Below the pieces are notes generated by a model. That model did not search any database and was not told the origin of the DNA. It saw only the letters and a program-made list of their open reading frames with translations. From Rugalucina vietnamica (lineage: Eukaryota > Mollusca > Bivalvia > Lucinida > Lucinidae), in NCBI GenBank assembly GCA_964017185.1, contig OZ024883.1:1054001-1118000 (forward strand): DNA of 64,000 nucleotides. Reading direction: 5' to 3'. The translations under genes and the position numbers were made by a program. Positions 25,855 through 64,000 of the stretch are shown piece after piece. Positions within the stretch are counted from its first letter, which is position 1. Each line of letters opens with the position of its first letter.

Positions 25855-25975
25855 CTTAAAACTGAGTTCCTTTAAGAGCAGTGAACACATTAACGAGAAA
25901 GGGGATGGGACATACCGCGGTTTCGACTATTAAAGTCTCGTCAGTGACCCATTAGATTTAGCAACATGGAACCAA
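25855..25975 (+). repeat. Boundary repeat D, copy 1
   Basis: It contains CCTTTAAGAGCAGTGAACAC, CCGCGGTTTCGACTATT and CTCGTCAGTGACCCATTAG. The same sequence occurs on the minus strand at 33868-33978 and 34242-34342 inside the satellite. Its first part also follows both plus-strand satellite arms (51850-51885 and 62045-62095). Confidence 0.7.
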
Positions 25976-26809
25976 ACAGAATTAATGAATACTTCTTAAT
26001 ACGGAATTTCCCTCTAGTCGTGTCCTCTTCGCACATCTTTCACGTTCGTCTTCTGATGCACTACGAATCAAGTACATAACATTTAAGTCGTATTAAGTAA
26101 TAACAGACTTTCTAAGACAGGGTTTTGATGTTCGTAACGGAGAGTCACGGAATAAACTGCATCCAGAGAGTTGTTCCCCTTTACAATTAAATAAGAAAAT
26201 GATATGCAAATTAGGTTTATTCCGTATTTAATATTTCATAACTATAAGTCTAAGAAATCTGGAGGGTGGGTGGGTATATGGTGGAAGGTGGTGGTAATAT
26301 AGCGGGAATATATTACGGAAATATACGAAGCATCAAATCCTTGGCTTAACAAATCAAATCATTCCGCAAAACAATTGATTGCGATGCAGCTAAAATGGCA
26401 TATTTCTTCAAATACAGGAATAATTTGAGATAACTGCTGAAAGGTAAGATTAGAAAGTACAGAGAGTGTATAGTCAAATTAATGACCCACCCCAGACACC
26501 AAGTGGTAGGACATGATAACTACAGGGACAGCCTTTAGCCACACTAAATATATGACTCCTATTCAGACCTCATAAAGGAGTCATTTAACACCAGCAATAA
26601 TTATTGTCTTGGTGCATGTTTAAGTTTATTTCGTGATACAGGCCACCGGCCCACAACACATTATTCTTATTTCTATGAAGAAGGCTATGAAACAACAAGA
26701 CTTTCTTCGTACTTTGCTCTATAAAGATAAACAACCAATACTTGAAAGCTTCTAGGCTATCCCATGAATATGTGTTTGCCTTGATGCATCAACTAGTTGC
26801 AAATAAATA
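25976..26809. other. No gene recognised
   Basis: AT-rich, with no ORF, RNA gene or repeat boundary that I can support. Confidence 0.35.
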
Positions 26810-27479
26810 GAGAAGGGTCTACTTGCAACATCATTGCTGAGTACGTCCGTACCCAGTACGTTTTTATATCTCTGCCCAGTACGTTATAAGAGTTATCGTT
26901 ATTTCTTAAAAAAGCTATTTTAAGCTAAATATAAATAGACTTAATAGACTTATATATGTTTTTACCATATTATGACAATTAGTCCTTTTTGTGGTCTAAT
27001 TCATAATAAGAGTAATTCATAATAAGAATATTTTTATAGCTTAATTTTATTTGATGACGTTCATGTGTAACATTCACAGTCTAAATATAATATTAAATCT
27101 ACATGTAGTCTTCGACTTTAAACCCACCTGAATATAATAAAATTTGAAATTGAAGGGTATATAAATTACGTGTTGAAACTTTAAAAAGCGATTTTACATT
27201 AGTCCGGCAGATTAATTTATACATATGTAACAGTCAGATAGTGTTTGTTTATTTACGTCCCAGTAAACGATGTTTCAGTCATTGTCCTGGCGGGCGAAAG
27301 CTAATCTAGTTGTTAGATTTGGGCATGAAAGGGCACGTACATGCGACCCATTTCCTACCGAATTTCTTTCTGATTGCATCATTTTTTTATAATCTCTCTA
27401 TTATCATGATTCCAGAAACATGATCCCTGAACAACAATTTAATTAAAATGCCTTTACGAATGCAAAACTAACACTTATG

Positions 27480-27532
27480 ATGGATATAAGTGTTGTTGTG
27501 ATCATAAAAGTTCAATCGACGTTTTGGATTTA

Positions 27533-27563
<31 letters not shown>

Positions 27564-27897
27564 ACTTTTTTGAATCAGTTTTACGTCCCTTTCAATATTA
27601 TTTCAGCTCATATGAGAACGGCCAATCAGAAGGTGGGGCGAAAACGGGAGAACCCCTAGAAAACCCACCTGGCACACCCGCAAGCAGAACTTGGCTTGTC
27701 TCACATGTGGCCAGAGCGGAGCTCGAACCCACACCAGGGCGGGCCCCGTGGCCGAGCGGTTAAGAGCGCTGTTTCTTAATCATTCGATCACCTCACCGCC
27801 GTAAATGGTGTGGGTTCGAGTCCCGATCTGGCCACATGTGAGACAAGCCAAGTTCTGCTTGCGGGTGTGCCAGGGACGTGAAAGGGACGTAAAACTG

Positions 27898-27955
<58 letters not shown>

Positions 27956-28030
27956 AGAGACAGAGATGACATGATCGAGTTATTAAGAAACAGCGCTCTT
28001 AATCGCTCGGCCACTGGAGCCGTCATTGTA
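27480..28030 (-). mobile_element. tRNA-Leu/Ser-like SINE, split by another SINE
   Basis: On the minus strand the head contains the A-box TGGCCGAGCGATTAAGAGCG (28000-28020), and the B-box GGTTCGAGCTCC lies across the insert at about 27720. The body reads CACATGTGAGACAAGCCAAG and CTTCTGATTGGCCGTTCTC. The tail region is a C-run followed by CA repeats at 27533-27564. It is separated by a plus-strand SINE at about 27741-27954. Confidence 0.75.
27741..27954 (+). mobile_element. tRNA-Leu/Ser-like SINE with internal deletion and poly(A)
   Basis: A-box TGGCCGAGCGGTTAAGAGCG and B-box GGTTCGAGTCC lie about 50 bases apart, a long-variable-arm (class II) tRNA layout. The body is cut short: GGGTGTGCCAGG joins directly to GACGTGAAAGGGACG, omitting about 80 bases present in other copies. 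It ends in a 54-nt A run (27901-27954). Confidence 0.8.
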
Positions 28031-28050: not shown

Positions 28051-29395
28051 TAGCTTTCTGAGCCGAAGGCTCACAAAGTGAGATGGTCATGCTCCGGCGT
28101 CCGTCCGTCGTCCGTCCGTCCACATTTTCAAAGATCTTCTCCTCTCAAACCGCTTAGCCTATCAAAACCAAACTTCATGTGAAGCATCCCTAGGAAGGGG
28201 GAACCAATGTTTGTATAAATTGTCCAGGTCACATGACCAAGATGGCCGCCATGGCTATAAATCGCAAAAACCTTAAAAATATTCTTCTCCAGAACCAGAA
28301 GGCCTATGATTTTGAAACCTGGCATGAAGCATCAGGGAGAGGAGCTCTACAAAGTTTATATAAATCATGAACTTGGGATGACCTTGACCTATTTTACAGC
28401 AAGGTCAACATAGGTCGCCCATGTATTTGTATGGGGAAAATTGTCAAAATGTCATTTGAAGGGAAAAACTTGAAGGGAAAGGGTAAATGGACTGAACATT
28501 TATGATTCTGAAAAAATGCACCCCAGGGGCTGGTCTACCCCCACTCCGGGGCAATATACATGTATATTGCCATAATATTCAAAGATCTTCTTCTCTGAAA
28601 CTACTTGGTCAATCAAAGCCAAACTTCATGTGGAGCATCCTAAGGAAGTTGGAACAAAAGTTTATATAAATGGTCCAGATCACATGACCAAGATGGCCGC
28701 CATGGCTATAAATAGAAAAAAATATCTTTCTCCAGAACAATAAGGTCTATGATTTTGAAACTTGGCATGAAGCACAGGGAAAGGAGCTCTACATAGTTTA
28801 TATAAATCATGACCCAGGAATGACCTTGACATATTTTATGGCAAGGTCAACATAGGTGGCCCATGCATTTGAAGGGGAAATTTGTCAAAAAGTCATTTGA
28901 AGAGAAAAACATTAAGGAAATGGGCAAATGGACTGAAGATATATGATTCTTAAAAATGGACCCAATGGGCCGGTCTGCCCCCACCCTGGGGCAATATAAA
29001 TGAATATCACCATAATATTCAAAGATCTTCTTCTCTGAAACCGCTTGGCCAATCAAAGCCCGGCAAATTTGATATAAAGCACATGTAGGAAGGAGAAACA
29101 AATGTGTACATAAATAATCCAGGTCACATGACCAAGATGGCCGCCATGTCCATACATGGTAAAAATCATTCTAAAATCTTTTTCTATGGAACGGGTGGAC
29201 CAATTTCAACAAAACTAGGCATGTAGCATTGTAGACTAGAGTACTATATGCGTGCATAAAATTATGACCCTGTGATAACCTTGACCTATTTTACGACAAG
29301 GTCAATATAGTTCGTCCATGACCATACTAGTCAAACAGGTTTATTGGTATATATCCCTGATCTCAGGTGAGCGTTTACAGGACCATTGGTCCTCT
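28051..29395 (+). mobile_element. AGCTCAC repeat element, second copy
   Basis: The head is CTGAGCCGAAGGCTCAC with a GTCCGTCC run; about three units each contain AAGATGGCCGCCATGG, and the end reads TCTCAGGTGAGCGTTTACAG then GACCATTGGTCCTCTAG. The other two X copies lack it at the same place (GTATCGAGTCAACA joined directly to TTTTCAGCTATGTC), so they serve as empty sites. Confidence 0.8.
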
Positions 29396-29747: not shown

Positions 29748-30389
29748 TACGAAAACATGCGGCTATAGCATTTAAGTGCTGGTTCAGATAAATAAATGTT
29801 TAATTATTATAAAACACGTATTATATTACAAGTTTCAACAATAAAACGCTTTGCAATTTAATATGCATGGTTGCCATAGCAACAAACCGAACACCACTGG
29901 AGGAAAAATCTAAGATTTCCTTGTTTTAGGGGTTTTCAGATACCTTTATGTCAGAAGCTCTGCGTATCTCGGACGGTCTTACGCATAACGAATAAGTTCT
30001 ACATGCGGTAAATACGCTTTGAACGCTTTCGACGTCTTTGTATGGTCCTCGCCCATTTGTGGCCTAAATAAATAGAAGGGCTGCTTGTGCCTCCAGGCAA
30101 AGCTTCTACGCTACCGACTGACCGTCTGATCATGTCTGAGACTGCCCAAGGAAAGTGGCCAAAGTCAATCATCCATACAAAGTTTATATGGGTCATTACC
30201 AAAAAATGGAGCAATCCAGAAAACTGTAAGGCAAAACAAAAAAAAAATCGTTGTCCAGTTTTTCTTTTTTAATGAGATAGTTTTATTAACAATAGCATTT
30301 AGAATATAGAAATAAAATATGCCGAGTTTAACTGAACAAATTGTGCACCAGCATTAATCAATTGTATGGTACCCTTGAAAAAATATCAG

Positions 30390-32400
30390 TGCTGTCACGA
30401 ACAATTTTTCTTGCGTACAACGCTTATTTGATAAGACTTTCCAAATCTGTAAGTGGGGGTATATATAACTTGTCACAAACCTTAAATTCTTTCAATGAAT
30501 TAACGAGGGAGAGAGCTTCAATGAAAATGCACATACTGTGATTTGTTCTGTTTCTGAAGCGCTTTTTTCTGTAGAGATAATCTTGAAGGATTAAACCAAA
30601 ATTAAGTTCTTCAAAACGTTTACTATTTTAGTATAGTATCATTACATACCAAAAGCAACTACTTTTATATGATGCGTTTTGAGTATTTTAAATAATTATG
30701 ACCGTGACAGCACTGATATCGTGACAGCACTGATGCTGTCGTGACAGCACTGTTAATTATCCGATCTCGCCTTTTTTATTCCAATGTGTGCGGAGTTGAT
30801 TAACTAATTAATTTCTGACAATTAACCGATGAGCTTAAGGACAGTGACTGCCTTACGGTCGCAACCAACGAAGCCTCGGCTAATGCTCGAACCAGGGACA
30901 CCTTTGGGTAGATAACACGACACGTTCGGTACACGCAAACCAAACGCGGTGTAACACGACAAGCGCAATTAGCGCTATTCAGCTTAACACTTTAAGCAGC
31001 TGCAGCATGAGAAAATGTTTTTGGGGCTTTCGACCAGGTCTGAAACAACCAGGATTGTTCACGACAAAAGAGTGCAATTAATTTGGGACCCTATCACGGG
31101 TTTTCTGTGTAGAAGGGCCATTAATAATAACAATACTAATCTCTATATTTATAGAGGATAACGTATTTAGCACAACGGCCAGTCTTCCATACGGTCCTCT
31201 AGTGCATACAGACATTGATTATTTTCGGACCTCTTTTGTTATTATTCGGACATTTTCATATTAGACATGCGATGTTAGTGATGCTATATTTTGTTTTGGG
31301 AGAAGAGAAGCCAGTGCTTGCCTAATAATGCTGAGCGCCAAGCAAGGTAGCCACTGGTACCATTTTTAAAGTCTTTGGCTTGACCCGGCCTGGGATCGAA
31401 CCCACGACCTCCCGCTCCCGAAGCGGACGCTCTCACCATTACGCTATCGGAATCGGCAATTCGTTATCAAGGAGCTTGGGAGAACTGGAAAACATTTGAA
31501 GGGAGTTGGGGATTACTAGAAGAGAACATTTTTAGTTTTTGGAAGCTGGGAGCAAGTAAAAAAATTAGGGAGCTGGGGTCATTTTTCTTTTAGTGAGCTT
31601 GGAGCTAATACCCCCTTGGAAGGTTACACTGCAGCTGAGCTGCACTTTTGCAAAATCATGTCTTCTCATGAAGCGTCTGATATTTATTTTGTATGTACCC
31701 GAGTCAATAACTTTCAGTAATGTCGGGACGAAACTACCACTTTTTTATCTTCGTAGTAACCAGCCTCATTGGGTATACCCTGGTCGACGAAGAATTTTGA
31801 ATTTGCAGTTTTGTATCACCCCCCCCCCCCCACACACACACACACACCTCAAATGGTTTGACCTCTTCTGACTGCTACTGGTGTTAGTAGCTGAGACCCT
31901 CTCGTGAAAGGCGACCTAACTCTTTTCAGTGTAGGAAATTGCCTGAATCCACACCTGCTGACAGAAGTCAACTCAGTGCTGCCACACATCAGTACTGTCA
32001 CGACCGTGACAGCACTGACCGTGATAGTACTGAGTTTCACACATAAATTTAATTATTATGACTAACAGCAGAATGCAGGCTGAAAACTTTGCATATCTAT
32101 TCAAACCGGCCCTAAGCTGAAATTCAGTCATGGCCTTAAAATGTACGTGATATTTGCGACAAGCGGCAAAATGCGCGTGATAGTACTGATGGCTAAAAAA
32201 TTCCCACACCGATTTTGACATGTCTTTATGGAATATGAACGGAGTAATTTTCTCAAAAAGTTGTTTACCATGACTTCATCAGCTTGCTGTCGTCTACAAA
32301 AATGCGATTGTTTTGATCTGAGAAAATGATTCATAACTCTGGTCAAAATAGATGTTTTAAAACTGTGACAGCACTGATATGTTTTCCAGGGACAGCACTA
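30390..32400. repeat. Scattered GTGACAGCACTGAT words
   Basis: The word or its complement occurs near 30392 (inverted), three times at 30706-30751, in an inverted pair around 31999, and at about 32022, 32180 and 32370. Most are followed by ATCGTG or ACCGTG. X copy 3 has the same pattern at about 63000 and 63315-63360. Confidence 0.7.
31375..31460 (-). mobile_element. tRNA-Pro-like SINE head
   Basis: On the minus strand it reads ATAGCGTAATGGTGAGAGCG (A-box) and GTGGGTTCGATCCCAGG (B-box), with CGCTTCGGGAGCG between them as an anticodon-like arm (CGG). It is absent from X copy 3, so it inserted in copy 1. It is judged SINE-derived because flanking bases do not complete a cloverleaf acceptor stem. 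Confidence 0.5.
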
Positions 32401-32819
32401 TAATGTGCCGCCGCTCTTAAATTGCACTTAATATACCATATGATTTTTGAATTTGACTTCAATAACATTATATGCAATAGAGGGTTACAGAAAATGTAAT
32501 TTCTGCCAAGCTTCTTTTGCAATGGAAACAAATAAAACCACTTACCCAGACCCGGGGACACGATAAAAATCTTGCATTTTTTCTTTTAAATAACATACTC
32601 GTAAACGTGAAATCCGTGAGGTTCTTGTAAAGCACGGCTGATAATAATATTATAGAAGGAGGAAGCAAACCTCGGACATCGCGCTTGCGAGAAAATCATC
32701 AGGGACAAGGATTGCTCCATTTTTTGATAATGACCCATGTATACAATGCGTGTCTGCAGCGTAGAAGCGAAAATGGGCTATTTTGAAAATTGTACGGCAT
32801 CATACCAAATATGTGATAC
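31666..32819. other. Gene-free approach to the satellite
   Basis: It contains a C-run with CA repeats (31819-31846), part of the GTGACAGCACTGAT word cluster and otherwise unassigned AT-rich sequence. Short minus-strand ORFs here (31849-32668) overlap one another without recognisable domains. Confidence 0.4.
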
Positions 32820-33867
32820 CGGAACGTTCCAAGTAGAGATCTACAGCGCCATACTCTACCACAACGTTCCAAGTTGAGCTCTAGAGCGCTGTACCCATTG
32901 GGGATTTACCGCAACGTCCCTAGTAGGTATCTACAGCGTCATAGTCTACCGCTGCGTTCCAAGTAGGGTTCTACAGTGTCATATTCTACCGCAACCTCCC
33001 CTACAGCTCCATACTCTGTCACAACGTACCCAGTAGAGATATACAGCGCCTTAGTTTACGAAAGCGTCCCAAGTAGGTATCTTTAGAGCCATACCCTACC
33101 ATAACGTCTACAGTATGGATCATCAGCGTCCCCAGTAAAGATATACAGCACCAAACTGTTATGCAACGTCTTCAGTATGGAAATACAGTGCAATAATCTA
33201 CAACAACGTACCTGTAGGCATCTATAGTGCAATACTCTACTACAACATCTCCAGTTCGCAACTACCGTGCCATAGTCTACCGCAACGTATCCAATTTGGT
33301 ATCTGCAGTGTCATACTCTGCCTAAAAGTACCGAGTAGAGATATACAGAGCAATATTTTACCACAAGGTCCCAATTAAGGATTTACAGTTTTTATCTATA
33401 CCGCAACGTTCCCAGCAGAGACCAATAGCGCCATACTCTATCACGCAGTCTCTAGTTGAGATCTATAGCCAAATACTCTACAGAAACGTCCCCAGTAGAT
33501 ATCTACTTTCAACCACAACATCTGCTGTTTGGATCTTCAGCCACATACTCTATAACGTCCCATTATGGATCAACAGTGCCCTACTATACCGCAAATTTCC
33601 CAATAGGGATCTACATGTCCATAGTCTACCGTCACGTCCCCAGTAGGGATCTACCGTGCAATTCTCTACCGCAACGTCCCAGGTTGTGATATACAGCGCT
33701 ATTTTCTACCACAACGAAACCAGTAGGGATCTTCAGCGCCATGCTGTACCATATTGTTCCAAGTACAGACATATAGCGCCACACTCATATGCAACGTACC
33801 CAGTAGAGATCTACAGCACCATACTCTACTGCGACGTTTCCAATAGGTATCTACAACGACATACTCA

Positions 33868-34342
33868 CTGACGAGGCTTGAATAGCCGAAACCGCGGTAT
33901 GGCCCATCACCTTTCTGGAAAATATGCTCACTGCTCTTAAAGGATCTCAGTTTTATTTTTATTTGCTATTACTGCAGCTGGTGTTGTGCCGTGTGGCGGC
34001 CCTAAAAAGTCTCCCCGTACATCATCCGTAGTGCAGATTATATTTTCCTTTTGGTCCTTTGAGATCAGAGAGGATATTTTGAGAAATCAGAAAATTATCA
34101 TCGGTTTAGATTCATATTCTAACCAACGTTCAATATATTTGGCCACAATTTGATTATACTAGTCTTTGTATCGACTAGCCTGCTGAAAGTTGAAAAATTA
34201 CTGTAACTCTCTTTGGCTCCATGTTGCCAAATCTAAAGGGTCACTGACGAGGCTTGAATAGCCGAAACCGTGGTATGGCCCATCACCTTTCTGGAAAATA
34301 TGCTCAGGGCTCTTAAAGGATCTCAGTTTTATTTTTATTATC
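33868..34342 (-). mobile_element. Insert with about 105-bp direct terminal repeats (repeat D)
   Basis: CACTGACGAGGCTTGAATAG to TTTTATTTTTATT is present at both ends with only a few differences and encloses about 260 bp. It thus resembles a tiny LTR-type (TRIM) element or an unequal-exchange product. Satellite continues directly on both sides. No primer-binding site or polypurine tract was confirmed. Confidence 0.55.
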
Positions 34343-34954
34343 TACTGCAACGTCCCCAGTAGAAATCTACAGACATAAACACTACCGCAACGCCCCAACT
34401 AGGTATCTACAGTGCCATTCTGTAGCGCAACGTCCCCAGTAGATATCAACAGCGCCATACTCTAGTGCAACGTCTTCAGTAAGAATGTACAGTGCCGAAC
34501 TCTACCACAACGTACCCAGTAGGGATATACCGCACAATTCTCTACCGCAATGTCCCCCATAGTGATAAACAGTGCCATATTCTAGCACAACGTCCCCTTG
34601 TGGATATTCAATGCCAAAATCTATCGCAAACTCCCTGTTATGAATATTCAGCGCCATACTCTACTGCTACGTCTACAGCATCTATAACGCCTTTCTCTAC
34701 CGCAACCTCCCCAGTAGGGATCTACAGTGCCATACTCTACAACATCGACCCCAGTTAATATCTACAGAGCCATACTCTACCACAACGTACCCAGTAGAGA
34801 TCAACAGCGCCATACTGTACCACAACGTCTCCAGTAGGTATCTACAGCGCCATACTCTATCGCAATGTCCCCAATAGGGATCTACAATGCCGTATTCCAC
34901 CACAACGTCCCCAGTAGGGATGTACATGCAGTGCCAAATTCTACAAAACGTTCC

Positions 34955-35085
34955 CACCTCGGTTTTTGGAGTGGGAATCTTTTTCTGATTGTGCCTTTTC
35001 CTGATTCCCACCTCGGTTTTTGGAGTGGGAATCTTTTTCTGATTGCGGCTTTTCCTGATCTTTGCCTACTTGTACCTTCTGTTAG
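34955..35085 (+). repeat. Repeat E fragment, internally duplicated
   Basis: CCCACCTCGGTTTTTGGAG to TTTTCCTGATT occurs twice in tandem, then runs into CTTTGCCTACTTGTACCTT, as in 5680-5755. Confidence 0.65.
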
Positions 35086-35174
35086 GGATATACAGAGCCA
35101 TACCCTACAGCAACGACCAAGTATGGTTCTACAGTGTCATACTGTACCATAACGTAGACAGTAGACAGTAGCAA

Positions 35175-35325
35175 AACTAATCGATTGATTATTCGATTAC
35201 TTTTGCAAATCAATTGTAATTGTAATCGAATAAAGCCAGGAAAAATACTTTTAATCGTAATCGTTAATCGTTGAAAGTAATTGTAATCGTTAGTGATTAA
35301 CTTTGAAAGTAATCGATAACAGGTC
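35175..35325. repeat. TAATCG(A/T)-rich cryptic repeat
   Basis: Words such as AATCGATTAC, GTAATCGTTA and GAAAGTAATCG recur irregularly. Low complexity. Confidence 0.6.
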
Positions 35326-35361
35326 TGCCAGGCTCTACCGCAATGGTCCACTAGGGATCTA

Positions 35362-36383
35362 CGTGGGATTATCAAAAATTACGTGGACTTTTCTTATAAC
35401 TTATGATTTAATGACTCGATTCCACTCAAACTTTCAATACACATGGACCCATGTAATATGCAGCAGTGTGCAAAATTTCATCACAATCCCTTCATTCATT
35501 ACAAAATTATTGTGAAGTGAAAACATCCACTTACGCCACCATGGAGCACTCCGATGACGTCAGTGACGTCGACGCAAAAACACTGATTTTGAACCACAAA
35601 ATGTGCTTTTTAGGGCTACTGATTTTTACATTTTTACTGCTCAAAGTATGTTAAAAGATTGTTTAACTATTGGAGCATGGTTTATATTACCAATCTGTAT
35701 AAAGTTTTTAATGTATTGCCTTGATTTGAGAATAAATTTGGACTGGGCATAAGGATGCTGACTTTTAACATTATGATTTAGGCGTTAGAACATTTTAAAT
35801 GACGGATATGAATTTCGATATTTATTTGGAACCTATTTGTTCAAACGTGGACGTAATGTTTCATTTCTAATGCTTTATCGAAGGACCTTGAAGTTTTACC
35901 GGCAAATAAGAAATTAGGATTAGTTTCAAATTGGAATTGTACAATATTGCCGGTTGATCTGTGTTGCATGAAATTCAGACATCGCTTAAACATTATGAAA
36001 CAATCAAACATGTATGCCTAAGCAAAAAAACGTAGGTGCACAACCGGTCCACCATAATTTTTGAGCAAGCATAAATTGTTTTGTTATGCATTCATTAAGA
36101 CACATGGCAGGTTTGGCTGTGATCTGCAAAACCGTTATGAAGAAAACGCAAAAGAAATGCGATACTGCAGTGCCGAACTTAACGTCATTTCTGACGTGCT
36201 CCGTGATGAGGAGGGTGTGGTAAGAAAAACCATCACCAACTGCTAATAAAACATTTTAGATTAACCAAACTTTCAGAATCTAGTGGAGTTAAGCAAGTTT
36301 ATCGTCAGCTGAAATTTGAATATGTTTGCCTAAACCATTGTCAAGTTATGGGAAAAGTCCACGTAATTTTTGATAATCCCTCG
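35362..36383 (+). mobile_element. 1,022-bp TIR element in a TA target, with possible gene cargo
   Basis: The left end CGTGGGATTATCAAAAATTA and the reverse complement of the right end (CGAGGGATTATCAAAAATTA) match for about 40 bases with three differences. It is bounded by TA on each side (35360-35361 and 36384-36385). Removing it restores the satellite word GGATCTACAGTGCC, so the target was TA, as for Tc1/mariner-type elements. No transposase is present; the two protein-like segments inside are described separately. Confidence 0.8.
35541..36246 (+). CDS. Predicted two-exon single-pass membrane protein inside the TIR element
   Basis: Exon 1 (35541-35645) begins in an ideal context, GCCACCATGG. 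It encodes MEHSDDVSDVDAKTLILN and then a hydrophobic stretch (CFLGLLIFTFLLL) that would be a signal anchor, and ends at AAA|GTATGT. Exon 2 would start after CATTCATTAAG at 36100, in the same phase (0), and encodes THGRFGCDLQNRYEENAK and onward, to a TAA at 36244-36246 that overlaps AATAAA (36245-36250). Total about 83 aa: short acidic N-terminus, one membrane segment, then a hydrophilic domain with two Cys. A donor-like GTAAGA near 36223 could instead lead to a further exon. No family is recognised. It may be host exons captured by the element; splicing is a prediction. Confidence 0.4.
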
Positions 36384-36486
36384 TACAGTGCCATATTCTA
36401 ATACAACATCCCCAATATGGATCTACAGTGCCAAAATCTACCCAACGCCCCTAACCACATACTAAGCAGCTATGTCCCCAGTAGTG

Positions 36487-36613
36487 TAGCCTGGGTTCCA
36501 GTCTGATCCTTTTTTTTTTCTTTTTTTTTTTAATTTTTCATTTTTTCAGCCTAGCCTGGGTTCCAGTCTGATCTTTTTTCTTTTTTTTTTTAATTTTTCA
36601 TTTTTTCAGCCTT
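36487..36613 (+). repeat. Direct duplication of about 60 bp (AGCCTGGGTTCCAGTCTGATC...)
   Basis: AGCCTGGGTTCCAGTCTGATC followed by a T-rich run and TAATTTTTCATTTTTTCAGC appears twice in tandem within the satellite. Confidence 0.85.
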
Positions 36614-52720: not shown

Positions 52721-52721
52721 C

Positions 52722-53024: not shown

Positions 53025-53310
53025 AGGGTAGCGCGGTCGCCTATCGGTCGATGATCGGACTCAGAACGAAAAGGTCTTTGGGTGAGAACCCAAATAGATA
53101 GCAGGTATGAGGCCTATCACAAAACACGTTGAATCTTTAACACTGTTAAAAACTTGAGCTCTTGCTAGACATGACAGTGACTGAAACATCGTTGACTGGG
53201 GCGTTAATCCACAAAAACGCCAAACTCACTGTCACGACTGTATAAAAATGCATATCTGCTAGACTATCTCTTGTCGGCAAAAAAATAAAATAAAATAAAA
53301 TATATATACC
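53025..53310 (+). mobile_element. tRNA-derived SINE with AAAATA tail
   Basis: The head has GGGTAGCGCGGTCGCCTATC and a weak B-box (GGGTGAGAACCC). The 3' body ACAGTGACTGAAACATCGTT then GACTGGGGCGTTAATCC is shared, on the opposite strand, with about 27250-27300 and 56680-56705. The tail is (AAAATA)n. Confidence 0.6.
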
Positions 53311-53640
53311 CTTCAATTTTAAGTTTTACTTTATACAAGTGGGTTTAAGAGTCTGCAGAATACAATAATATTTAATCTTCTTGACAATGAATTTTAAACT
53401 TGAACGTAATTAAATGAAAACAAAAATATAAAATCTATATACATGTAAAATTGGACCATCAAAGGTACTCATTATGTAAGTTACACTGTCAATATATCTA
53501 AACGATTTTATTTATAAATAGCTTTTTAACGATTCTATTTATAATTAGCTTAAAATAGCTTTTACCGTACTGGGCAATGATATTAAACCGTACCCAGCAA
53601 CGACGTACTCGGCAAGGATGTTGCAAGTAGATACTACTGG
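53311..53640 (-). repeat. Inverted copy of the start of segment X
   Basis: The reverse complement matches 55889-56280 and 26815-27170: GTTGCAACATCCTTG(C), CGTACTGGG(C/T) words, AAAGCTATTTTAAGCTAA, CTTCAATTTTAAG. It faces X copy 2 across about 2.2 kb. Confidence 0.65.
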
Positions 53641-53693
53641 ATTTTGGGGCATGCAAAACAAATGTGCAATGCAACTGTGCGCATCACAAGAAT

Positions 53694-53762
53694 TGTCTTA
53701 TATTAAGATATAAATTGTCTTATGTTAAGATATAAATTGTCTTATATTAAGATATAAATAAT
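53694..53762 (+). repeat. Three 23-bp units (TTGTCTTATATTAAGATATAA)
   Basis: Each unit is nearly palindromic around TATTAAGATA; three tandem copies. Confidence 0.9.
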
Positions 53763-53973
53763 AGCTTCTATGATATGTCTTATGATGAAACATGCTCAAA
53801 AGGTAGATCCAATCATGTATGTAAACGAAATAAACCGCCAAATTTATACTAAAAAAACTGTTATTATTTTTCATAATATGAAAGATATGATTGTTTTAGA
53901 ACTGTGTTATAACTAGACTTGGTCATAACGAAAGACGAGTGCTTTGACAGATTCCTGAAACGATTCAGTACAG

Positions 53974-54216
53974 GACCCGAGGTTATAAAACTTTTTTTCA
54001 AGCTCAGCTCAGCTGAGCATGAAATTTCTACTGCTCATAAATGCTGAAATAGTCAAAATTAGTGGAGATTACATGTTCAAAACTCAAAAACTAGAAATTA
54101 ATCCTGCTCAAAAATCATGGTTAAAATGCCAACAATTGGCATTTTAACATTTATGAGCAGGATAGATTTTAGTCTCAGCTGAGCTGAGCATGAAAAAAGT
54201 TTTATATCCTCGGGTC
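53974..54216. mobile_element. Foldback MITE of about 243 bp
   Basis: The left end GACCCGAGGTTATAAAACTT and the right end (reverse complement GACCCGAGGATATAAAACTT) continue inward as TTTTTTCA(A/T)GCTCAGCTCAGCTGAGC and more loosely beyond, so most of the element can fold on itself. No clear target duplication. Confidence 0.75.
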
Positions 54217-54219
54217 AAG

Positions 54220-55117
54220 GTCTACCTAGAATAACCCCAGTAAACCTGGTTTATATATACATGTAGTACGTCTACAAACAACAATCCCAGTATCCTTTGT
54301 GCATATATATTTGGTCTACCTAGAACTATCCCAGTATCCCTGGTGTGTATATATTTGGTCTACCAAGAACAATCCCAGTAAACCAGGTATATATATATTT
54401 GGTCTACCTAGAACAATCCCATTATACCCGGTGTATATATTTGGTCTACCGAGAACAATCACAGTACACGTGTATGTATTTGGTCTACCGTGAACAATCC
54501 CAGTATACCTGGTGTATATATTTGGTCTACCTAGAACTATCCCGTTCCAGGTGTGTATATTTGGTCTACCTAGAACAATACCAGTAAACCAGGTGTATAT
54601 ATATTTGGTCTACATAGAACGATCCCAGTATACCAGGTGTAGATATTTGGTCTACATAGAACAATCCCAGTATACCAGGTGTATTTATTGGTCTACGTAG
54701 AACAATCCCGGTATCCCTGGTGTATATATTTGGTCTACCTAGAACAATGCCATTATACCTGGTGTATATATTTGGTCTACTGAGAACAACCCCAGTATAC
54801 GTGGTGTACATCCCAGTTTATCTCTTGTACATGTATATATTTGGTCTGCCTAGAACAATCTCAGTGTACGTGGTGTATATACAAGTATTTGGTCTACCGT
54901 GAACAATCCCAGTATATTTGATGTATATACAATTGTATTTCGTCTATTTAGAGCAATCCCAGTACTCCTGATGTATTTATTTCGTCAACCAACAACAATT
55001 CCAGTATACCAGGCGTATATATTTAGCCAACCTAGAACAAACCCAGTATCCTATGGTGTATATATTCGGACTACCTAGAAAAAATCCCAGTATACCAGGT
55101 GTATATATTTGGTCTAC
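54220..55117 (+). repeat. 42-bp minisatellite (TATATTTGGTCTACCTAGAA...)
   Basis: Roughly 21 units of about 42 bp: GTGTATATATTTGGTCTACC then TAGAACAATCCCAGTATACC with variations. Because 42 is a multiple of three, frames stay open across several units (YIFGLPRTIPV-type translations); stops and length changes break them all, so they are not considered genes. The last unit overlaps the stop codon of the peptide gene on the opposite strand. Confidence 0.95.
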
Positions 55118-55352
55118 AGGTAATGAACCATTTCGCGTTTCGGCATTAGTGTCCTAATTAACTTGACAACAGAATCAGGGAGGATTTCAGCGGATTCCTC
55201 TACAAAGCAAATTATCTAACTTTAAAGAAACAAAGTAGAAAAAAGAAAGAATTAAATTGAAGTTAACTACAGACAGAGCAAAAAAGAAAACACTCACCCA
55301 ATTTTGAAGTGAGCAGGCTCAATAAAACGATCAGTAAAACTGTTCTATCCAT
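55114..55352 (-). CDS. Candidate two-exon gene for a small secreted peptide
   Basis: On the minus strand, exon 1 runs from ATG (55352) to 55298 and encodes MDRTVLLIVLLSLLTSKL, a textbook signal peptide, followed by a strong donor G|GTGAGT. A 98-bp intron has a pyrimidine-rich 3' part and ends TTGCTTTGTAG. Exon 2 (55199-55114) continues in phase: EESAEILPDSVVKL and so on to PKREMVHYL-stop. A PKR dibasic site in the mature part would suit prohormone-type processing, but the 28 residues are not a known peptide family to me. GTATAAAC (about 55376-55383) could serve as TATA box. The stop lies in the final unit of the minisatellite. Splicing and expression are predictions. Confidence 0.45.
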
Positions 55353-55884
55353 GCCAAAATTTAACACACATTCAGTTTATACATGCTTGCTTTGTTTATT
55401 ATATCCCTAGTTCCAAGTTAATATATGCTTATATTTCTCAGTAATTCCAACCGAATGTAATCAGAAAATTCGTAAAACTGATTGGAAAATTAGCGAGCAT
55501 GTTTATACAATCGTCTTTCTTATAATAAATAATTAATAAAGTAAACTAATTATGAAACAGGGGGATATCTATTTATTTTACAGAATTATTATCAAGGTCA
55601 TTATATACAATACCATGAATACGCATTGTCCCGAGAAACAGTCAGTAGCGTTTCATACTTATAAATGCTCATACACGTTTGCGGGGGTTGTCCAAAAAGT
55701 GCTAGTCCCACTGCGCTATCGCTATACGATTGTCCAAATATTAATTTGGGGGCCATTTCTTTGGCCCCAATACGCAAATTAAGGAAGCATAAACACGCTG
55801 GAAAACATTTTACTTACACGTAATTTGCATGCTCAGTCTTATTAGTCAAAACTAATGATTACACAATCGTACGATTCCTTACGA
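55353..55884. other. Upstream region of the peptide gene; no other gene
   Basis: It contains the TATA-like GTATAAAC on the minus strand near 55380. The 76-codon ORF at 55552-55782 has no recognised domain. Otherwise AT-rich. Confidence 0.4.
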
Positions 55885-56944
55885 TTCGAGAAGGGTCTAG
55901 TTGCAACATCCTTGCCCAGCACGTCCGTACTGAGTACGTCTTTATATCGCTGCCGAGTACGGCGGATGTCGTTATAACACTTTTAAAGAGAGAGTTATCC
56001 TTCTTTTTAAAAAGCTATTTTAAGCTAAATATAAATAGACTAATATATGTTTTAACATATTTTGTCAATTTACTACACATAATAAGTCCTTTTCATGGTC
56101 TAATTCATAATAAAAGTAATATATTATAATAGTATTTTTATATCTTAATTTTATTCGATGACGTTCATGTGTAACATTCACTGTCTATAAGAGTAAATGT
56201 GCATTGTAGTATTCGACTTTAAACCCACCTGCATAAAGTAAAATTTGAAAATGAAGGGTATATATAGTACCTGTTTCACCACTTCGAAAGCGATATAGTC
56301 CGGCAGATTAGTTTATACTTATATATATATATTTATATCAAAGTCAGATTTATTTATTTACGTCTCAGTAAACGATTTTGTTTGTTTGAATTAATGCTTT
56401 ACGTCCCAGTCAACAGCCAATGTCATGTCGGGACGTTGCCTCCACTTTATGGGACTTTTAACCAAAATGAGGATGTCATGTCATCCAACAAGTGCTTGAA
56501 ATATGCATCAAACCAAGCCAAAAAGGCTTACAGGTATGGAGGGTTTGACTTGAAACCACTTTTCCTGGGCAAGCTCTGAGCGGATAACCAGTAATCAGAT
56601 GGTCAGTCATTAGCAAAGAAGCTTTGCCTGGAGACACTAACAGCCCATCTATTTCTTTAGGCCCCGGGGGCCCCAGTAAACGATGTTTCAGTAATTGTCC
56701 TGCCGGACAAAGCTAAGGCTCTAGTTGTTAGTTTTAGGCATGAAAGGACACGTACATGCGATCCATTTCCCACCCCTCGGTTTAAGGAGTGGGAATTTAT
56801 TTCTGATTGCGTCATTTTTTGATTACCTCTCTATCATGCTTCCTAAGATCTGACATGGAAGATCTAGCAATCTAGCCCACCGCGCTGCCCCGATAAACAA
56901 TTTAATTAATATACTTTTACGAATGCAAAACTAACACTTATGAT

Positions 56945-57245
56945 GGATATAAATGTTCTTGTGAACATAAGAGTTCAATTACCCCCCCCCCCCCACCCCA
57001 ACTTTGATTTTTCAAATCAGTTTCACGTCCCTTTCAAGATTATTTCAGCTCATATCAGAACGGCCAATCAGAAGGTGGGGCGAAAACGGGAGAACCCCGA
57101 GAAAAACCACCTGGCACACCCGCAAGCAGAACTTGGCTTCTCTCACATGTGGCCAGAGCGGGTCTAGAACCAACACCAGACAAAGCGGTGAGATGATTGA
57201 GTGATTCAGAAACAGCGCTCTTAACCGCTCGGCCACGGCAGCCGT
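56945..57245 (-). mobile_element. tRNA-Leu/Ser-like SINE, full length
   Basis: On the minus strand: TGGCCGAGCGGTTAAGAGCG (A-box, about 57222-57241), GGTTCTAGACCC (decayed B-box), CACATGTGAGAGAAGCCAAG, CTTCTGATTGGCCGTTCTG, AAAGGGACGTGAAACTGATT, then a G-run (C-run on the plus strand, 56981-56999). Confidence 0.8.
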
Positions 57246-57289
57246 CATTTTTTATTTGATTGTATGTATCGAGTCAACACTTTAACATG

Positions 57290-57457
57290 TTTTCAGCTAT
57301 GTCTGGACAAAGCCAACGCTTTTTTAGTATGAACCATCACTGTTGTGAGTTAATGTTGTCTTGCTCAAGGACACGACTCGGAAACCCCTGGTGAGAATCA
57401 AACCACATACCTCTCTATTCGGTCCGGTGCTCTACCACAAGGCTATCGTGCTCCATA
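57290..57457 (-). mobile_element. tRNA-Arg-like SINE, second copy
   Basis: Same as 29400-29575: on the minus strand GGAGCACGATAGCCTTGTGG at its head and GTCCAGACATAGCTG at its inner end. The region between the boxes has small deletions. Confidence 0.65.
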
Positions 57458-57530
57458 AAGTTCTTATAAACAGCCGAGAAACAGGCATGTTTAATAAAGT
57501 TGTTTTTTTCTCGATATATTCGTTTAAACA

Positions 57531-57719
57531 GCAGTCACACATTAGCGTATAACCCAAACGCGCGCCCGGCGTATGAAAAATGTCAACACGCTGAAGATTT
57601 TGGACGTATAAAATTTATTTGTACCTTTAACTCGCTTTAGCAGTCACACATTAGCGCGCGACAGAGGCGTGTGCTGGACGTATAAAAAATCTCAAAGTTT
57701 TAGAGTACGTTTGTCTTAC
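57531..57719. mobile_element. Two solo TIR fragments of the GCAGTCACAC element
   Basis: GCAGTCACACATTAGCGTAT at 57534 and GCAGTCACACATTAGCGCGC at 57640 are in the same orientation, each followed by ACGC- and GGACGTATAAAA-type sequence. They look like nested or repeated truncations of the element at 21081-22567. Confidence 0.7.
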
Positions 57720-58721
57720 GTCCCAGATCTACAGTGCCAAAAATTACCGCACGGTACCCAGTAGAATATTCTGTGCCATGCTCTACCAAAGCGTTCGTAG
57801 TAGAGACATATAGTCCCAGAATCTACCACAACGTTTCCAGTAGAGATCTGAATCTGAATAGTTCACTGGTGACACGCCAAATGATATTATTTCACCAGCA
57901 CCAGTAGAGATCGGAAGAGCGATATATTCTATCGAAACGTCTCCAATAAGGATTTATAGTGCGATTTTATTCTGAAACGTCTTCAGTAGGGATTTACAAT
58001 GACATACTCTACCACAATGATGCCAGAAGGTGTCTAACAGGCCATTCTCTGCCGCAACGTACCCAGTAGGAATCTACCGTACCGTACTTTATTGCAACTT
58101 TCCCTGTAGGGATCTTTAGCGCCATACAGTAGTTTACTTGAATTTTTATACTTGAATAAATGGTCTTAACCATACGTCTACACATATCTATAAGTTTGAT
58201 TCTGTATGAGAGGTTAGAATAAGAATCCTCAGAAAACGTGTACACAGTTGTTTTTTCGGTACGCTCTGTACATTTATTTATTTTGATGCTTACAGTACGC
58301 ATTTTGAAAAATAATTATCTTCATTACTGATACTTTATCACAACGTACCCTATAAAGATATAAAGCGGCATAGTTTAGCTCAAGGTCACGAGTAGGGAAC
58401 TTCAGTGCCAAACTCTACCACATCGTTCTCAGTACAGACCGTTAGCTTCATATTCTACCACAACGTTTTCAGAAGGGAGCAACAGTGCAATACTAATTGC
58501 AACGCCCCCAAGAAAAACATACAGCGACATACTCTACCGCAACGGTCCCAAAAGGGATTTGCTGTGCCATACTCTACCACACCAGCACCAGTAGAGATAA
58601 ATAGCGCCATAGTTAACCCAGCAGGGATCTTCATACTCTACAAAATCGGTCCTTGTTGAAACTTATAATGTAATTCTATACCACAACTTACCCAGTAGAG
58701 ATCCATAGCGCCATTCTCTAT

Positions 58722-59580
58722 TGCAACGTCCCCAGTAGGGCTCTACATTGCCATATTTTATCTTAACGTCTCCAGTAGGGATATACACTTGTATACTTTT
58801 CTACATCAACGTCCCCAGTAAGGATCCACAGCGCTATACTCTACAACAACGTGCCTAGTACAGATATACAGCACCATAGTTTACCACAAGGTCCGACGTC
58901 CCCAGTAGGGATCTACATTGCCATATTTTATCTTAACGTACACAGTAGGGATGTACACTTGTATACTTTTCTACAGCAACGTCCCCAGTAAGGATCCACA
59001 GCGCTATACTCTACAACAACGTACCTAGTACAGATATACAGCACCATAGTTTACCACAAGGTCCGACGTCCCCAGTAGGGATCTACATTGCCAACTTTTA
59101 TCTTAACGTCTCCAGTAGGGATATACACTTGTATACTTTTCTACAGCAACGTCCCCAGTAAGGATCCACAGCGCTATACTCTACAACAACGTACCTAGTA
59201 CAGATATACAGTACCATAGTTAACCACAAGGTCCGACGTCCCCAGTAGTGATCTACATTGCCATATTTTTCTTAACGTCTCCAGTAGGGATATACACTTG
59301 GTATACTTTTTACAGCAACGTCCCCAGTAAGGATCCACAGCGCTATACTCTACAACAACGTACCTAGTACAGATATACAGCACCATAGTTTACCACAAGG
59401 TCCGACGTCCCCAGTAGGGATCTACATTGTCATATTTTATCTTAACGTCTCCAGTAGGGATATACACGTGTATACTTTTCTACAGCAACGTCCCCAGTAA
59501 GGATCCACAGCGCTATACTGTACAACAACGTATTTGGTACAGATATACAGCACCATAGTTTACCACAAGGTCCGACGTCC
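58722..59580 (-). repeat. Five 170-bp higher-order units
   Basis: GGTCCGACGTCCCCAGTAG recurs near 58891, 59061, 59231, 59400 and 59570, giving a period of 169-170 bp, i.e. four variant monomers. Copies are nearly identical, unlike the rest of this arm. Confidence 0.92.
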
Positions 59581-59899
59581 CCAGCAGAGATCTAATGCGG
59601 CCTACTCTAATACAACGTCAACAGTAGGGGTTCACAGCGCCATACTCTACCACAACGTTCCTAGTTGGTATCTACTGCACCATACTTTACCACAAGTCCC
59701 CAGTAGAGATCTACAGTACCACATCCTCAATGTAACCAGTAGAGATCTGAAGCACCATACTCTTCATCATCGTCACCAGAGGATATCAAAAGCGCCAAAC
59801 ACTACCACAGCATCAAGAATACGGATCTTTTGCGCCCTATTTTACAGTAATGTACCCAGTAGAGATCTACAGCACCATATTCTACTACATCGTGCCAAA

Positions 59900-59984
59900 T
59901 AGATCAGCTGGCTAACTGTCTCTCCGCTCCACTTCGGTACCTCGTTCCAGGTTTAACGGAATACCGATGGAAATATTCCGTCTA
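59900..59984 (+). mobile_element. 85-bp MITE, 9-bp target duplication
   Basis: Same family as 23627 and 24261, with an internal deletion of about 18 bp. It is flanked by CGTGCCAAA (59891-59899) and CGTTCCAAA (59985-59993), one mismatch. It sits in the satellite. Confidence 0.8.
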
Positions 59985-59994
59985 CGTTCCAAAA

Positions 59995-60285
59995 AAGTAC
60001 AAATGGCAATGATCAGGGAATGACACAATCAGAAATACAATCCCACTCCATAAACGAGAGGTGGGAAAAAATAAAATGACACTTAAGTACTTAAACCATG
60101 AAAACATGTCGTAAGCCGAGTGAGCAGCTATTCTCCAGTAGGCGGCCATTCAGTTACCCGAACTGAACTAAAATATGAAAACGCACATAGGGCCCAAACA
60201 GCACAATTCTACTCCACAACACAAAACAATTAGACCTACAACAGAAGTTTCGCCTTGGAACGATCCGTTATATAAAATTACTGTA
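59995..60285 (-). repeat. Repeat E, minus-strand copy
   Basis: Reverse complement of the 5465-5765 repeat, from the CCCAC(C)TC...GTGGGA hairpin through AATAGCTGCTCA(T/C)TCGGCTTACGA to CGTTCCAAG. It directly abuts the 9-bp-TSD MITE. Confidence 0.65.
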
Positions 60286-60780
60286 GGGTTAAAGATCTAA
60301 AATGCCATACTCTACCGCTACTTCGACACTAGGGATCTATATCGTCATATTGTACTATACCGTCCCCAGTAAGGAGCTACTGCGCCATACTCTGGCACGT
60401 CACCAGAAGACACTTACGGCGCCATACTCTACCGAAACGTCCCCAGTAGGAATCTACAGAACCATTATCTACCGTAACGTCCCAATTAGAGATCTACATC
60501 CACAAAGTCTACCGAAACGTCCCCAGTAGGGATCTATCTTCTGATACTGAGTCGATCAATTTCTGATCATCACCTCAGGTAGAGTATGGATCTACTGCAT
60601 CATTCTCTACCGTAACGTTCCCAGTGGAGATCTAAATACTGTACCGCGATATCCCCGATAGGTAACTGCAGTTCTATACTGTATCCCAACGTCCCCAGTA
60701 GGGATCTACATTGACATACTCTACCGCAACGTCCCCAGTAGAGATATACAGCGCAATAATTTTCCGCAACGTGCATTATT

Positions 60781-60839
60781 TACAAGCCAATATCAAAAAA
60801 CATTGCCGATAGATACAATGCTGGAAATTCACATGAACG
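60781..60839. other. Spacer at second satellite polarity switch
   Basis: About 60 bp of non-satellite sequence (TATTTACAAGCCAATATC and onward). It shows no resemblance to the 480-bp spacer at 37911-38394. Confidence 0.6.
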
Positions 60840-62010
60840 TGATTTATCTCTACTGACGACGGTGTGGTAGATTATGGTGACGAAAAACTCTACTGGGGAC
60901 GAAGCGATAGGGTATGACGCCTTAGATCTTTACTGGAGACGGTGTGGTAGGGTGTGACGCTGTAGATCTCTACTGGGGACGTTGTGGTAGGAAATGTGAC
61001 GATAGATCTCTACTGGGGACGGAATGGTAGGGTATGGTGTTGAAGATCCCTACTGGGGACGATGCTGAAGAGAATGACACTGTATATCTCTATAAGGAAC
61101 GGAGTGGTAGGGTATGGCGCTGTTTATCTCTACTGAAGACGGTGTGGTAGACTACCGCACTTTAGATCTCTACTGGGGACGGCCCAGTAGAGCTTTGAGC
61201 TGGAGATCTCTACTGGGGACGTTGTGGTAGGGTATGTCGCTCTAGATCTCTACTTGGGACGTATTGATAAAAAATAGAGTAGTTCGCTTCAGATGTCTAC
61301 TAGGGACGATGTGATAAGGTATGTAGCTGTGTCGTAGATCTCTACTGGGGACGATGCTGTTGGGAAACACTGTATGGTAGGGTATAGCGCTGTATATCTC
61401 TACTTAAGACGGTGTTGTAGACTACCGCACTGTCTCTATTTGGGACGGTCTGGTTGAAAATGGTGCTGTAGATCTCTATTGGAGACGGAGTGGTAGGTTA
61501 TGGCACTGTATATCTCAACTGGAGACGGTGTGGTGGAATACCGCACTGTAGATCTCTACTGCGGTCGGTCCAGTAGAATATGGTGCTGTAGATCTCTACT
61601 GGGAACCTATTGGTAGAGTATGTCGCTTAAGATATCCACTGGGGACGGTGTGGAAGAGTATGTTGTTGTAGATCCCTACTGGGGACGATGCTGAAGGGAA
61701 TTTCGGTATATTTCTATAGCGGGGACGTTGTGGTAGATAATGGCGCTGTATATGTGTACTTGGGACATTCTGGAAGGGTATGACGTTGTAGATTCTCCTG
61801 GGGACGGTGTATAAGAGTATGACGCTGTATATCTCCACTGGGGACGATTTGGTATACTATAGCGCTGAAGAACCTCCTGGAAACATTATAATAGAGTATG
61901 GCGCATTAGATCAATACTGCGCAGGCCATAAAGTATGACGCTATAGAAACCTACTGTGAATATTGCGGTAGATTGTGTCACTGTAGATCTCTACTTGGGA
62001 CGGTGTAACG
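60840..62010 (+). repeat. 40-bp satellite, second plus-strand arm
   Basis: Same monomer and variant order as 38395-51800 (GATGCTGAAGAGAATGACAC, GTCCAGTAGAATATGGTGC) but only about 28 monomers and more diverged, especially at its right end. Confidence 0.93.
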
Positions 62011-62129
62011 ACATCACCCTTAAACCACTGATAGTTCCCCCATTGAAGGATATGAATATATACTTAGATCCTTAAAGAGCAGTGAGCATATTAATGAGAT
62101 GATGTTTAGGCTACTTTAAGCTCTTCAGA
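62011..62129 (+). repeat. Boundary sequence with start of repeat D
   Basis: AACGACATCACCCTTAAACC and CACTGATAGTTC, then CCTTAAAGAGCAGTGAGCAT and GTTTAGGCTACTTTAAGCTC, collinear with 51815-51920. Confidence 0.75.
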
Positions 62130-64000
62130 GAGCCTTTATCATGCTTCCTAAGATCTGACATGGAAGATCTAGCAATCTAGCCCACCGCGCTCCCCTGATA
62201 AACAAGTTAATTAAAATGCTTTTACGAATGCAAAACTAACACTTATGATGGATATAAATGTTCTTATGAACATAAAATTTCAATCGTCGTTTAGGATTTA
62301 CATTCCCACTTTTATAAATCAGTTGCACGTCCCATTCAAGATTATTTTAGCTCATACGATAACGGCCAATCAGAAGGTGGGACGAAAACGAAAGAACCAC
62401 CTGGCACACCCGCAAGCAGAACTTGGCTTGTCTCACATGTGGCCAGAGAGGGTCTCGAACCCACACCAGACACAGCGGTGAGATGATCGTGTGATTAAGT
62501 ATCAGCGCTCTTAACCGCTCGGCCACGGGAGCCGTCCTTCTTTATCTGATTGTATGTATCGAGTCAACACTTAAACATGTTTTCAGCTATGTCTGGACAA
62601 AGCCAACGCTTTTTTGAGTATTAACCATAACTGTTGTGTTAATGCTGTCTTGCTCAACTAAATAAATAGAAGGGCTGCTTGTGCCTCCAAAGCTTCTACG
62701 CTACCGACTGACCGTCTGATTACGCTGATTACTGTTTAAAAGTCAGATCATGTCTGAGACTGCCCAGGGAAAGTGGTCAAAGTCAATCATCCATACAAAT
62801 TAGTTTATATGGGTCATAATCACAAAATGGATCAATCAAAATAGGCAAAACGATAAAAAAATAATTGCCCATTTTATCTTATTTAATGAGATAGTTTTAT
62901 TTACAAAAGCATAATGAAAAAAAAAAGAAATAAAATATGCCGAGTTTAACTTATAAAATAGTGCACCAGCATTAATAAATTGTATGGTACCCTTAAAAAT
63001 ATCAATGCTGTCACGAACAAACTTTCTTGCGTAAAACGCTCATATGATAAGACTTCCCCAATCTGTAAGTGGGGGTATATATAACTTGTCACGAACAATA
63101 GTTAACACAAACCTTAAATACTTTCAATGAATTAACGAGGGAGAGAGCTTCAATGAAAATGTACATACTGTGATTTGTTCTCTGAAGTGCTTTATTTTTG
63201 TAGACATAATCTTGTAGGATTAAACCAAAAATAAGTTCTGTATAGCATCATTACATACCAAAAACAATCACTTTTATTTGATGCGTTTTGAGTATTTTAA
63301 ATGATTATGACCATAACAGCACTGGTATCGTGACAGCACTGATGCTGTCGTGACAGCACTGATAATTATCCGATCTCGCCTTTTTTATTTCAATGTGTGC
63401 AGAGTTGATTAATTTCTGACCATTTACCGATGAGCTTAGAGGCAGTGACTGCCTTACTGTCACAAAACGAAGCCTCGGCTAATGCTCGAACCAGCGACAA
63501 TTTTGGGTGGATCCATTACTCTTACTAATACAGCACGTTCGCTATACGCAAACCAAACGCGGTGTAACACGTAAAGCGCAGTAGAAACGATATTCAGCTT
63601 ATCACTTTAAGCTGCAGCATGAGCAAATGTGTCTTTGGGGCTTTCGACCAGGTATGAGACAACCAGGATTGTGAGCGACAAAAGACTTCAATAAATTTGG
63701 GACCCTATCACTGGTTTTAGGTAGCTGGGTAGCAGGGACATTTGTTTTCAGGGAGCTTGGGAGAACTGGAAACATTTCAAGGGAGTTGGGGATTACTAGA
63801 AGAGAACATTTTAGTTTCAGGAATCTGGGAGCAAGGGAGTTGGGGATTACTAGAAGAGAACATTTTAATTTCAGGAATCTGGGAGCAAGGAAAACATTTT
63901 AGGGAGCTGGGGAGAAAGGTCATTTTTCTTTTAGTGAGTTTGGAGCTAAAACCCCCTTGGAAGGTGTCATTGCAGCTGAGCTGCACCTTTGCAAAATCAT
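62130..64000 (+). repeat. Segment X, copy 3 (runs off the window)
   Basis: Collinear with 27400-27740 and 30060-31665 of copy 1: GAAGGGCTGCTTGTGCCTCC (62671), TATGCCGAGTTTAAC (62937), GTGACAGCACTGAT words (63315-63360), AACCAAACGCGGTGTAACAC (63551) and GGAGCTTGGGAGAACTGG (63751). A 54-bp unit (GGGAGTTGGGGATTACTAGA...) near 63781 is duplicated in tandem here but single in copy 1. It includes GATTACGCTGATTACTG (about 62717), absent from copy 1. Confidence 0.8.
62245..62535 (-). mobile_element. tRNA-Leu/Ser-like SINE, third copy
   Basis: On the minus strand: TGGCCGAGCGGTTAAGAGCG, GTGGGTTCGAGACCC (intact B-box), CACATGTGAGACAAGCCAAG, CTTCTGATTGGCCGTTATC. This copy has the least-decayed promoter boxes of the family in the window. 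Confidence 0.8.

Follow-up and report, generated by a model that had tools for sequence, protein, structure and literature searches.

The closest described parallels to the locus reported here, a 64,000-nucleotide stretch of the lucinid bivalve Rugalucina vietnamica (contig OZ024883.1, C15 below, positions 1,054,001-1,118,000; the window) that holds two copies of a giant, satellite-bearing, non-coding DNA transposon, are the foldback element Tetris and the foldback-like element Galileo. Tetris of Drosophila virilis is likewise non-coding, carries opposed tandem repeats in inverted arms whose length follows repeat number, and is flanked in complete copies by 8-9 bp target-site duplications, but its inverted repeats reach 1,735 bp with units of ~220 bp (PMC4079207), whereas element 1, the left copy here, has arms of about 5 and 13 kb made of a 40-bp unit that lie kilobases away from the terminal repeats, and the elements have a median length of 22 kb. 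Galileo, of the P superfamily, shares long terminal repeats, tandem-repeat expansion, non-coding copies, subfamilies and chimeric copies with the present case; unlike it, Galileo makes 7-bp duplications, has terminal repeats of up to about 1.26 kb and has a known transposase (PMC3573991, PMC2775673). The nearest parallels for joint movement are the maize Ac/Ds macrotransposons, in which nearby copies move as one unit with 8-bp duplications, and P elements, for which en-bloc movement of a tandem has been proposed (PMC9910405, PMC1562414). Unlike in those cases, the partners here are 27-kb satellite-bearing elements of different subfamilies in a 56-kb unit, and their joint movement is read from sequence alone. 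Helentrons are rolling-circle elements without target-site duplication, unlike the element here, which makes 8-bp duplications. The parallel lies in the Pacific oyster, where Helentron-borne satellite-like arrays are spread through the genome by non-autonomous mobile elements (PMC7492417).

Our element works like the foldback, Galileo and Tetris elements but is much larger. In the open-licence literature (titles and the starts of abstracts), no account was recognised as this element, although absence from print is not claimed. With high confidence, we read the locus as two copies in direct orientation, one of subfamily A and one of subfamily B, of a giant non-coding DNA transposon of the cut-and-paste type, with imperfect terminal inverted repeats and mirror-opposed arms of a 40-bp satellite, mobilised in trans by a putative partner with 8-bp target-site duplications, the pair having probably entered as one composite. 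The original prediction, made from the letters of the window, had described a tandemly repeated macro-module (boundary sequence D, segment X, a minus-strand and then a plus-strand satellite arm) and had offered either a giant satellite-carrying transposable unit or serial segmental duplication as its origin. The analysis was widened to 198 kb around the window within a genome of 1.09 Gb in 47 contigs, and window coordinates were kept beyond 64,000.

Termini, target-site duplications and copy number

Segment X begins at the left end of the element. A 591-base X query returned 387 first-look candidates in the genome, and the 40 that were scored were 96-100% identical to it, 39 of them starting at base 1. 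The right terminus, as shown by the copy on C13, is an inverted left terminus with a best core of 28/30 matches from base 9, the ends expected of a terminal inverted repeat (TIR), or cut-and-paste, DNA transposon. The similarity is patchy over about 660 bp in element 1, and the outermost 8 bases differ between the ends (GAGAAGGG vs CAGTAGTA), which is unusual. Exact 23-mers of the left and right ends occur 120 and 141 times in the genome, respectively, with no occurrence of either reversed control, and 120 copies of 22 kb would amount to about 2.6 Mb. When 84 of 100 listed left ends and 99 of 100 listed right ends were paired (ends on C12-C14 were left out), a right end on the same strand lay within 70 kb of 78 of the 84 left ends (median 22.3 kb), whereas no left end had one on the opposite strand within 35 kb.

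Perfect 8-bp target-site duplications were present in 26 of 28 testable pairs out of 29 fetched. Among the first 20 left-right pairs, 18 had identical flanking octamers; of 9 more nearest pairs, most of them picked because they are large, 8 matched exactly. The pair on C2 (8/8) was left out of these totals, its right end having already been counted. The matching pairs delimit elements of 17.5 to 45.6 kb, and the copy on C13 is flanked by GAAATTTT on both sides (8/8). In the controls, none of 784 octamer cross-pairs reached 7/8, and a wrong 62-kb pairing on C6 matched at only 1/8. The duplication therefore has the fixed length that marks a TIR transposon. Inverted termini, 8-bp duplications and dispersal over chromosomes together back the giant satellite-carrying transposable unit that had been offered as one possibility. 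The first two of these also ruled out X as a long terminal repeat, a candidate considered for two X copies lying 5.1 kb apart on C2; these two left ends share the same flank and thus look like a local duplication. Two possible miniature deletion derivatives were observed: left and right ends within about 170 bases of each other (C8:52551246-52551413), and a left end with an inverted, 66% similar stretch within about 750 bases (C5:55547344-55548096).

Two copies of different subfamilies with one shared duplication

Taken singly, neither copy in the window shows the duplication present in 26 of 28 other pairs: GATTTTGG follows the right end at 53,639, and TACGATTC precedes the left end at 55,888. 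The outer ends together do show one, with the identical octamer AATAAATA before the left end at 26,810 and after the right end at 82,978. Outer ends that share a duplication and inner ends that do not are the mark of a composite transposon. Macrotransposition is the simplest reading of the pair: a transposase would have used the left end of copy 1 and the right end of copy 2, and both copies with 2.2 kb of donor DNA would have moved in as one 56,169-bp composite. The subfamily identities bear on this point. Element 1 aligns with the whole copy on C13 and with the copy on C1 (read over 20 of its 23.1 kb) in blocks of 93.5-98.9% identity that include the minus arm, the core and the plus arm. The end at 55,888 represents a second subfamily, matched at 20 other places at 89-98% before identity falls to 76-88%, and element 2 shares 97.6% identity over 3.7 kb with a B copy on C10, which spans about 20.9 kb, has AAACAAAG on both sides (8/8) and follows the minus-plus plan. 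Matched non-satellite blocks of elements 1 and 2 are about 80-89% alike. Because the outer left end belongs to subfamily A and the outer right end to subfamily B (99.1% identity with the C10 copy over 454 bp), one ancestral element that was later filled is an awkward account. Among the 40 scored candidates for the right third of the spacer, a single other place matches its first 408 bases (88%), so no donor copy is visible for that part. The part of a short dispersed repeat at 55,697-55,887, which abuts the left end of element 2, is matched by 38 of the 40 scored candidates, with best stretches of 81-88%.

Two independent nearby insertions of one family, followed by ectopic recombination or gene conversion and involving no joint transposition, would be an unlikely alternative. 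Ectopic recombination readily acts on large copies that are nearly identical, chimeric Galileo copies whose flanks do not match have been described (PMC3573991), and C2:70.32 holds two left ends with the same flank 5.1 kb apart. In its simple form, however, this alternative predicts matching flanks for each copy, whereas neither copy has them and the outer flanks match at 8/8; a single exchange should leave one swapped flank pair rather than an A left end and a B right end whose outer flanks agree. We therefore retain joint entry as the preferred reading. The family shows that cut-and-paste-type transposition copes with non-coding elements of 17-46 kb and probably also with a composite of 56 kb.

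Several observations weigh against our overall reading of the locus. Evidence for the composite comes from a single locus, where the one 8-bp match lies in A+T-rich sequence. Six of the 84 left ends and 23 of the 99 right ends were unpaired; among the 78 pairs are a known mispair, a pair of 109 bp and two left ends that share a right end. The pair at C16:22.74 lacks matching octamers, its right flank looking like more right terminus, the octamers at C9:21.75 match only with a one-base shift, and in one more pair the left end was not found within the fetched stretch. In the 4 kb examined of a copy on C6, beginning about 0.4 kb inward of its left end, the first satellite is on the plus strand and no minus arm occurs. 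Finally, none of 197 listed transposase domain matches from four families lies within 75 kb of the 120 listed left ends, and no autonomous partner was found among them. The features of the locus are collected in Table 1.

Table 1. Features of the two elements and their junctions, in window coordinates
Feature	Positions	Strand	Remarks
Target-site duplication (8 bp), left outer edge	26802-26809		AATAAATA; identical twin at 82979-82986, beyond the window
Element 1, subfamily A (26,830 bp), left to right end	26810-53639	+	Left end GAGAAGGGTCTACTTGCAACATC, right end GATGTTGCAAGTAGATACTACTG; aligned with the C13 and C1 copies
Left imperfect terminal inverted repeat of element 1 (start of X)	26810-27467	+	Five blocks, 76-97% identity with the reverse complement of the right end, ~660 bp
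Tandem repeat of ~458 bp, ~2.7 copies, element 1	28124-29320	+	Same family also outside the element at 16831-18323
Minus satellite arm (40-bp unit), element 1	32794-37892	-	Interrupted (about 35.2-36.4 kb and shorter gaps); profile search
Core between the opposed arms, about 510 bp	37893-38405		Gap between arrays
Plus satellite arm, element 1	38406-51804	+	With 1,091-bp higher-order block; profile search
Right end region of element 1	51805-53639	+	D-like repeat at about 51869 and right terminal inverted repeat
Trapped DNA between the elements (2.2 kb)	53640-55887		42-bp tandem array at 54280-55117; part of dispersed short repeat, about 55697-55887
Element 2, subfamily B, part inside the window	55888-64000	+	Whole element to 82978, 27,091 bp
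Minus satellite, element 2	57725-60772	-	57725-59903 and 60354-60772; 170-bp higher-order block at 58726-59594
First plus array, element 2	60844-62006	+	Further plus arrays at 64317-70487 and 73458-80579, beyond the window
Internal piece of element 2	62007-64000	+	To about 64114; D-like repeat, internal X fragment 62134-62657, relatives of 30124-31770

Coding content and the putative transposase partner

The longest stop-to-stop frames are 136 amino acids in element 1 and 140 amino acids in element 2, and Pfam gave no match at the cut-off for the 10 frames scanned out of 23 listed (at least 70 amino acids, non-satellite parts of element 1). Three divergent left-end relatives (one on C6 and two on C9), read in part, have open frames of up to 119 amino acids; the two on C9 were examined for frames and by a right-end scan only. 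From these uninterrupted reading frames and the lack of a listed transposase match near the left ends, we conclude that the copies are non-autonomous and depend on a putative partner, a transposase that would act in trans on the element ends and make the 8-bp duplications. It is very unlikely that the element is itself the autonomous form of an unusual mobile element whose mobility gene escapes Pfam. The element is indeed large, numerous and similar between copies, and no autonomous partner has come to light; against such a gene stand the shortness of the longest frames and the lack of any domain above the cut-off in the uninterrupted frames scanned.

Domain matches in the genome comprise at least 2 KDZ, at least 20 P-type, at least 59 MULE and at least 116 hAT transposases. 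The hAT family prefers duplications of the form nTnnnnAn. This preference was not seen in our octamers: of 29 duplications, 6 have T and 20 have A at position 2, and 8 have A at position 7. An 8-bp duplication agrees with membership of the P superfamily, in which Anopheles P elements make duplications of this length (PMC1562414), and by its length it fits P-type and hAT transposases alike. No terminus like that of the element was found in the 2 kb upstream of the best of the 20 P-type matches. P-type transposase domains occur in long open frames of up to 856 amino acids (C8:22857446 and others), for which no link to element ends was found.

Satellite arms and internal organisation

Satellite arrays were mapped over the extended stretch by a profile search with the 40-bp unit. 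A minus arm, a core and a plus arm follow one another in elements 1 and 2 and in the copies on C1, C13 and C10, that is, in five of six copies examined. The predicted succession of X, minus arm and plus arm is thus borne out for the first two X copies (Table 1), with the minus-strand pieces of element 1 at 32,794-33,866, 34,341-35,165 and 36,385-37,892. Inverted arms of tandem repeats, one hallmark of foldback elements, were accordingly found in the same five copies, whereas tandem repeats within the terminal inverted repeats, another hallmark, were not found: the arms of element 1 start about 6.0 kb from the left end and stop about 1.8 kb from the right end. X had also been expected to stay with the satellite, and X and satellite share one element in all five copies read whole or mostly; chance is excluded here because the same-plan copies on C1 and C13 align at 93.5-98.9%. 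In a genome-wide check of satellite location, 21 of 26 rows fell between paired left and right ends, the other 5 were no more than 40 kb from an end on the same strand, and none lay elsewhere; the check took 26 of the 41 best rows (8 on C12-C16 and 7 within one array were dropped) and is biased, since the query came from the element and only best matches were taken.

Between about 39,406 and 43,500, the plus arm of element 1 contains repeats, 96-99% alike, of a 1,091-bp multi-monomer block. In the C1 copy the 3,266 bp corresponding to 40,240-43,506, about three such blocks, are missing, and 592 bp without satellite stand in their place. Arm length therefore changes at least partly by gain and loss of multi-monomer blocks, and the arms may grow by duplication of such blocks. 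Satellite-free gaps of 572-592 bp break the plus arms of the C1 copy (about 12,823-13,415 and 17,458-18,030) and the C13 copy (about 12,519-13,091; coordinates of the stretches read), and they possibly represent a nested insertion. The best-conserved part of the satellite resembles the right terminus (CAGTAG-TATCTAC / CAGTAGAGATCTAC), which is suggestive. The best shuffle values for this likeness were 0.008-0.02 and 0.025-0.05, with others up to 0.8 (two runs of 8 comparisons each), and derivation of the satellite unit from the terminal repeat was not convincing after allowing for the number of comparisons, leaving it as a lead only.

The element offers a concrete mechanism for sowing kilobases of satellite DNA over chromosomes, each time with a sharp point of insertion. 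Since an 8-bp duplication brackets every insertion, one can compare how satellite arrays have grown in independent insertions of a single family, a comparison that ordinary satellites hardly allow. A speculative extension, which we regard as possible rather than probable, is that this family of ~17-46-kb non-coding transposons serves as a satellite-dispersal vehicle, whose 40-bp arms would be amplified binding sites of the putative transposase, mirror-oriented towards each end to synapse very distant ends; the same reach would also allow the enzyme to join ends of adjacent copies and so to mobilise composites of more than 50 kb.

The macro-module originally proposed is out of phase with the element, whose true unit starts with X and stops about 1.8 kb beyond the plus arm. 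Of its three X copies in the same orientation, those at 26,810 and 55,888 share a true start, but the one at 62,130 lacks it: the stretch 62,134-62,657 matches only the interior of X (56,829-57,368, 86.6%). An equivalent internal D/X piece lies between plus arrays in the B copy on C10, so the supposed third X is not a separate unit but is built into both B copies seen. D-like sequence is indeed present at about 25,865, 51,869 and 62,069; it is a dispersed repeat and not a boundary. A 24-base D probe, allowing at most 5 errors, matched 16 times over the two strands of the 198 kb; 12 of these matches lie outside the two elements and 4 within them, and a few of the weak matches may be due to chance. 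The minus-strand arm predicted soon after 64,000 is absent, the next arrays (64,317-70,487 and 73,458-80,579) being plus-strand. Serial segmental duplication of a D-X-satellite macro-module, which would explain why modules recur locally in the same order, can be dismissed as having a negligible probability, given the position of the true unit, the ends with target-site duplications, the dispersed D, the internal third X, the lack of minus satellite after 64,000, and local copies that are about 80-89% alike but resemble copies on other chromosomes more than each other (93.5-98.9% for A; 97.6% over 3.7 kb for B).

Other repeats were observed in and around the elements. The stretch at 27,742-28,021 in element 1 is tRNA-like, with a poly-A run and an inverted partial copy, and by its motif it looks like a tRNA-derived short interspersed element. 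The ~458-bp repeat family occurs both inside and outside the elements (16,831-18,323, 28,124-29,320 and, in the opposite orientation near the right end of element 2, 81,209-82,454). Two more long tandem arrays lie downstream (103,739-110,204 and 131,812-135,125), where the 40-bp satellite profile gives no match. Upstream of the window, a direct duplication of ~4 kb (-33,659 to -29,619 and -16,127 to -12,131) shows 94.8-96.5% identity.

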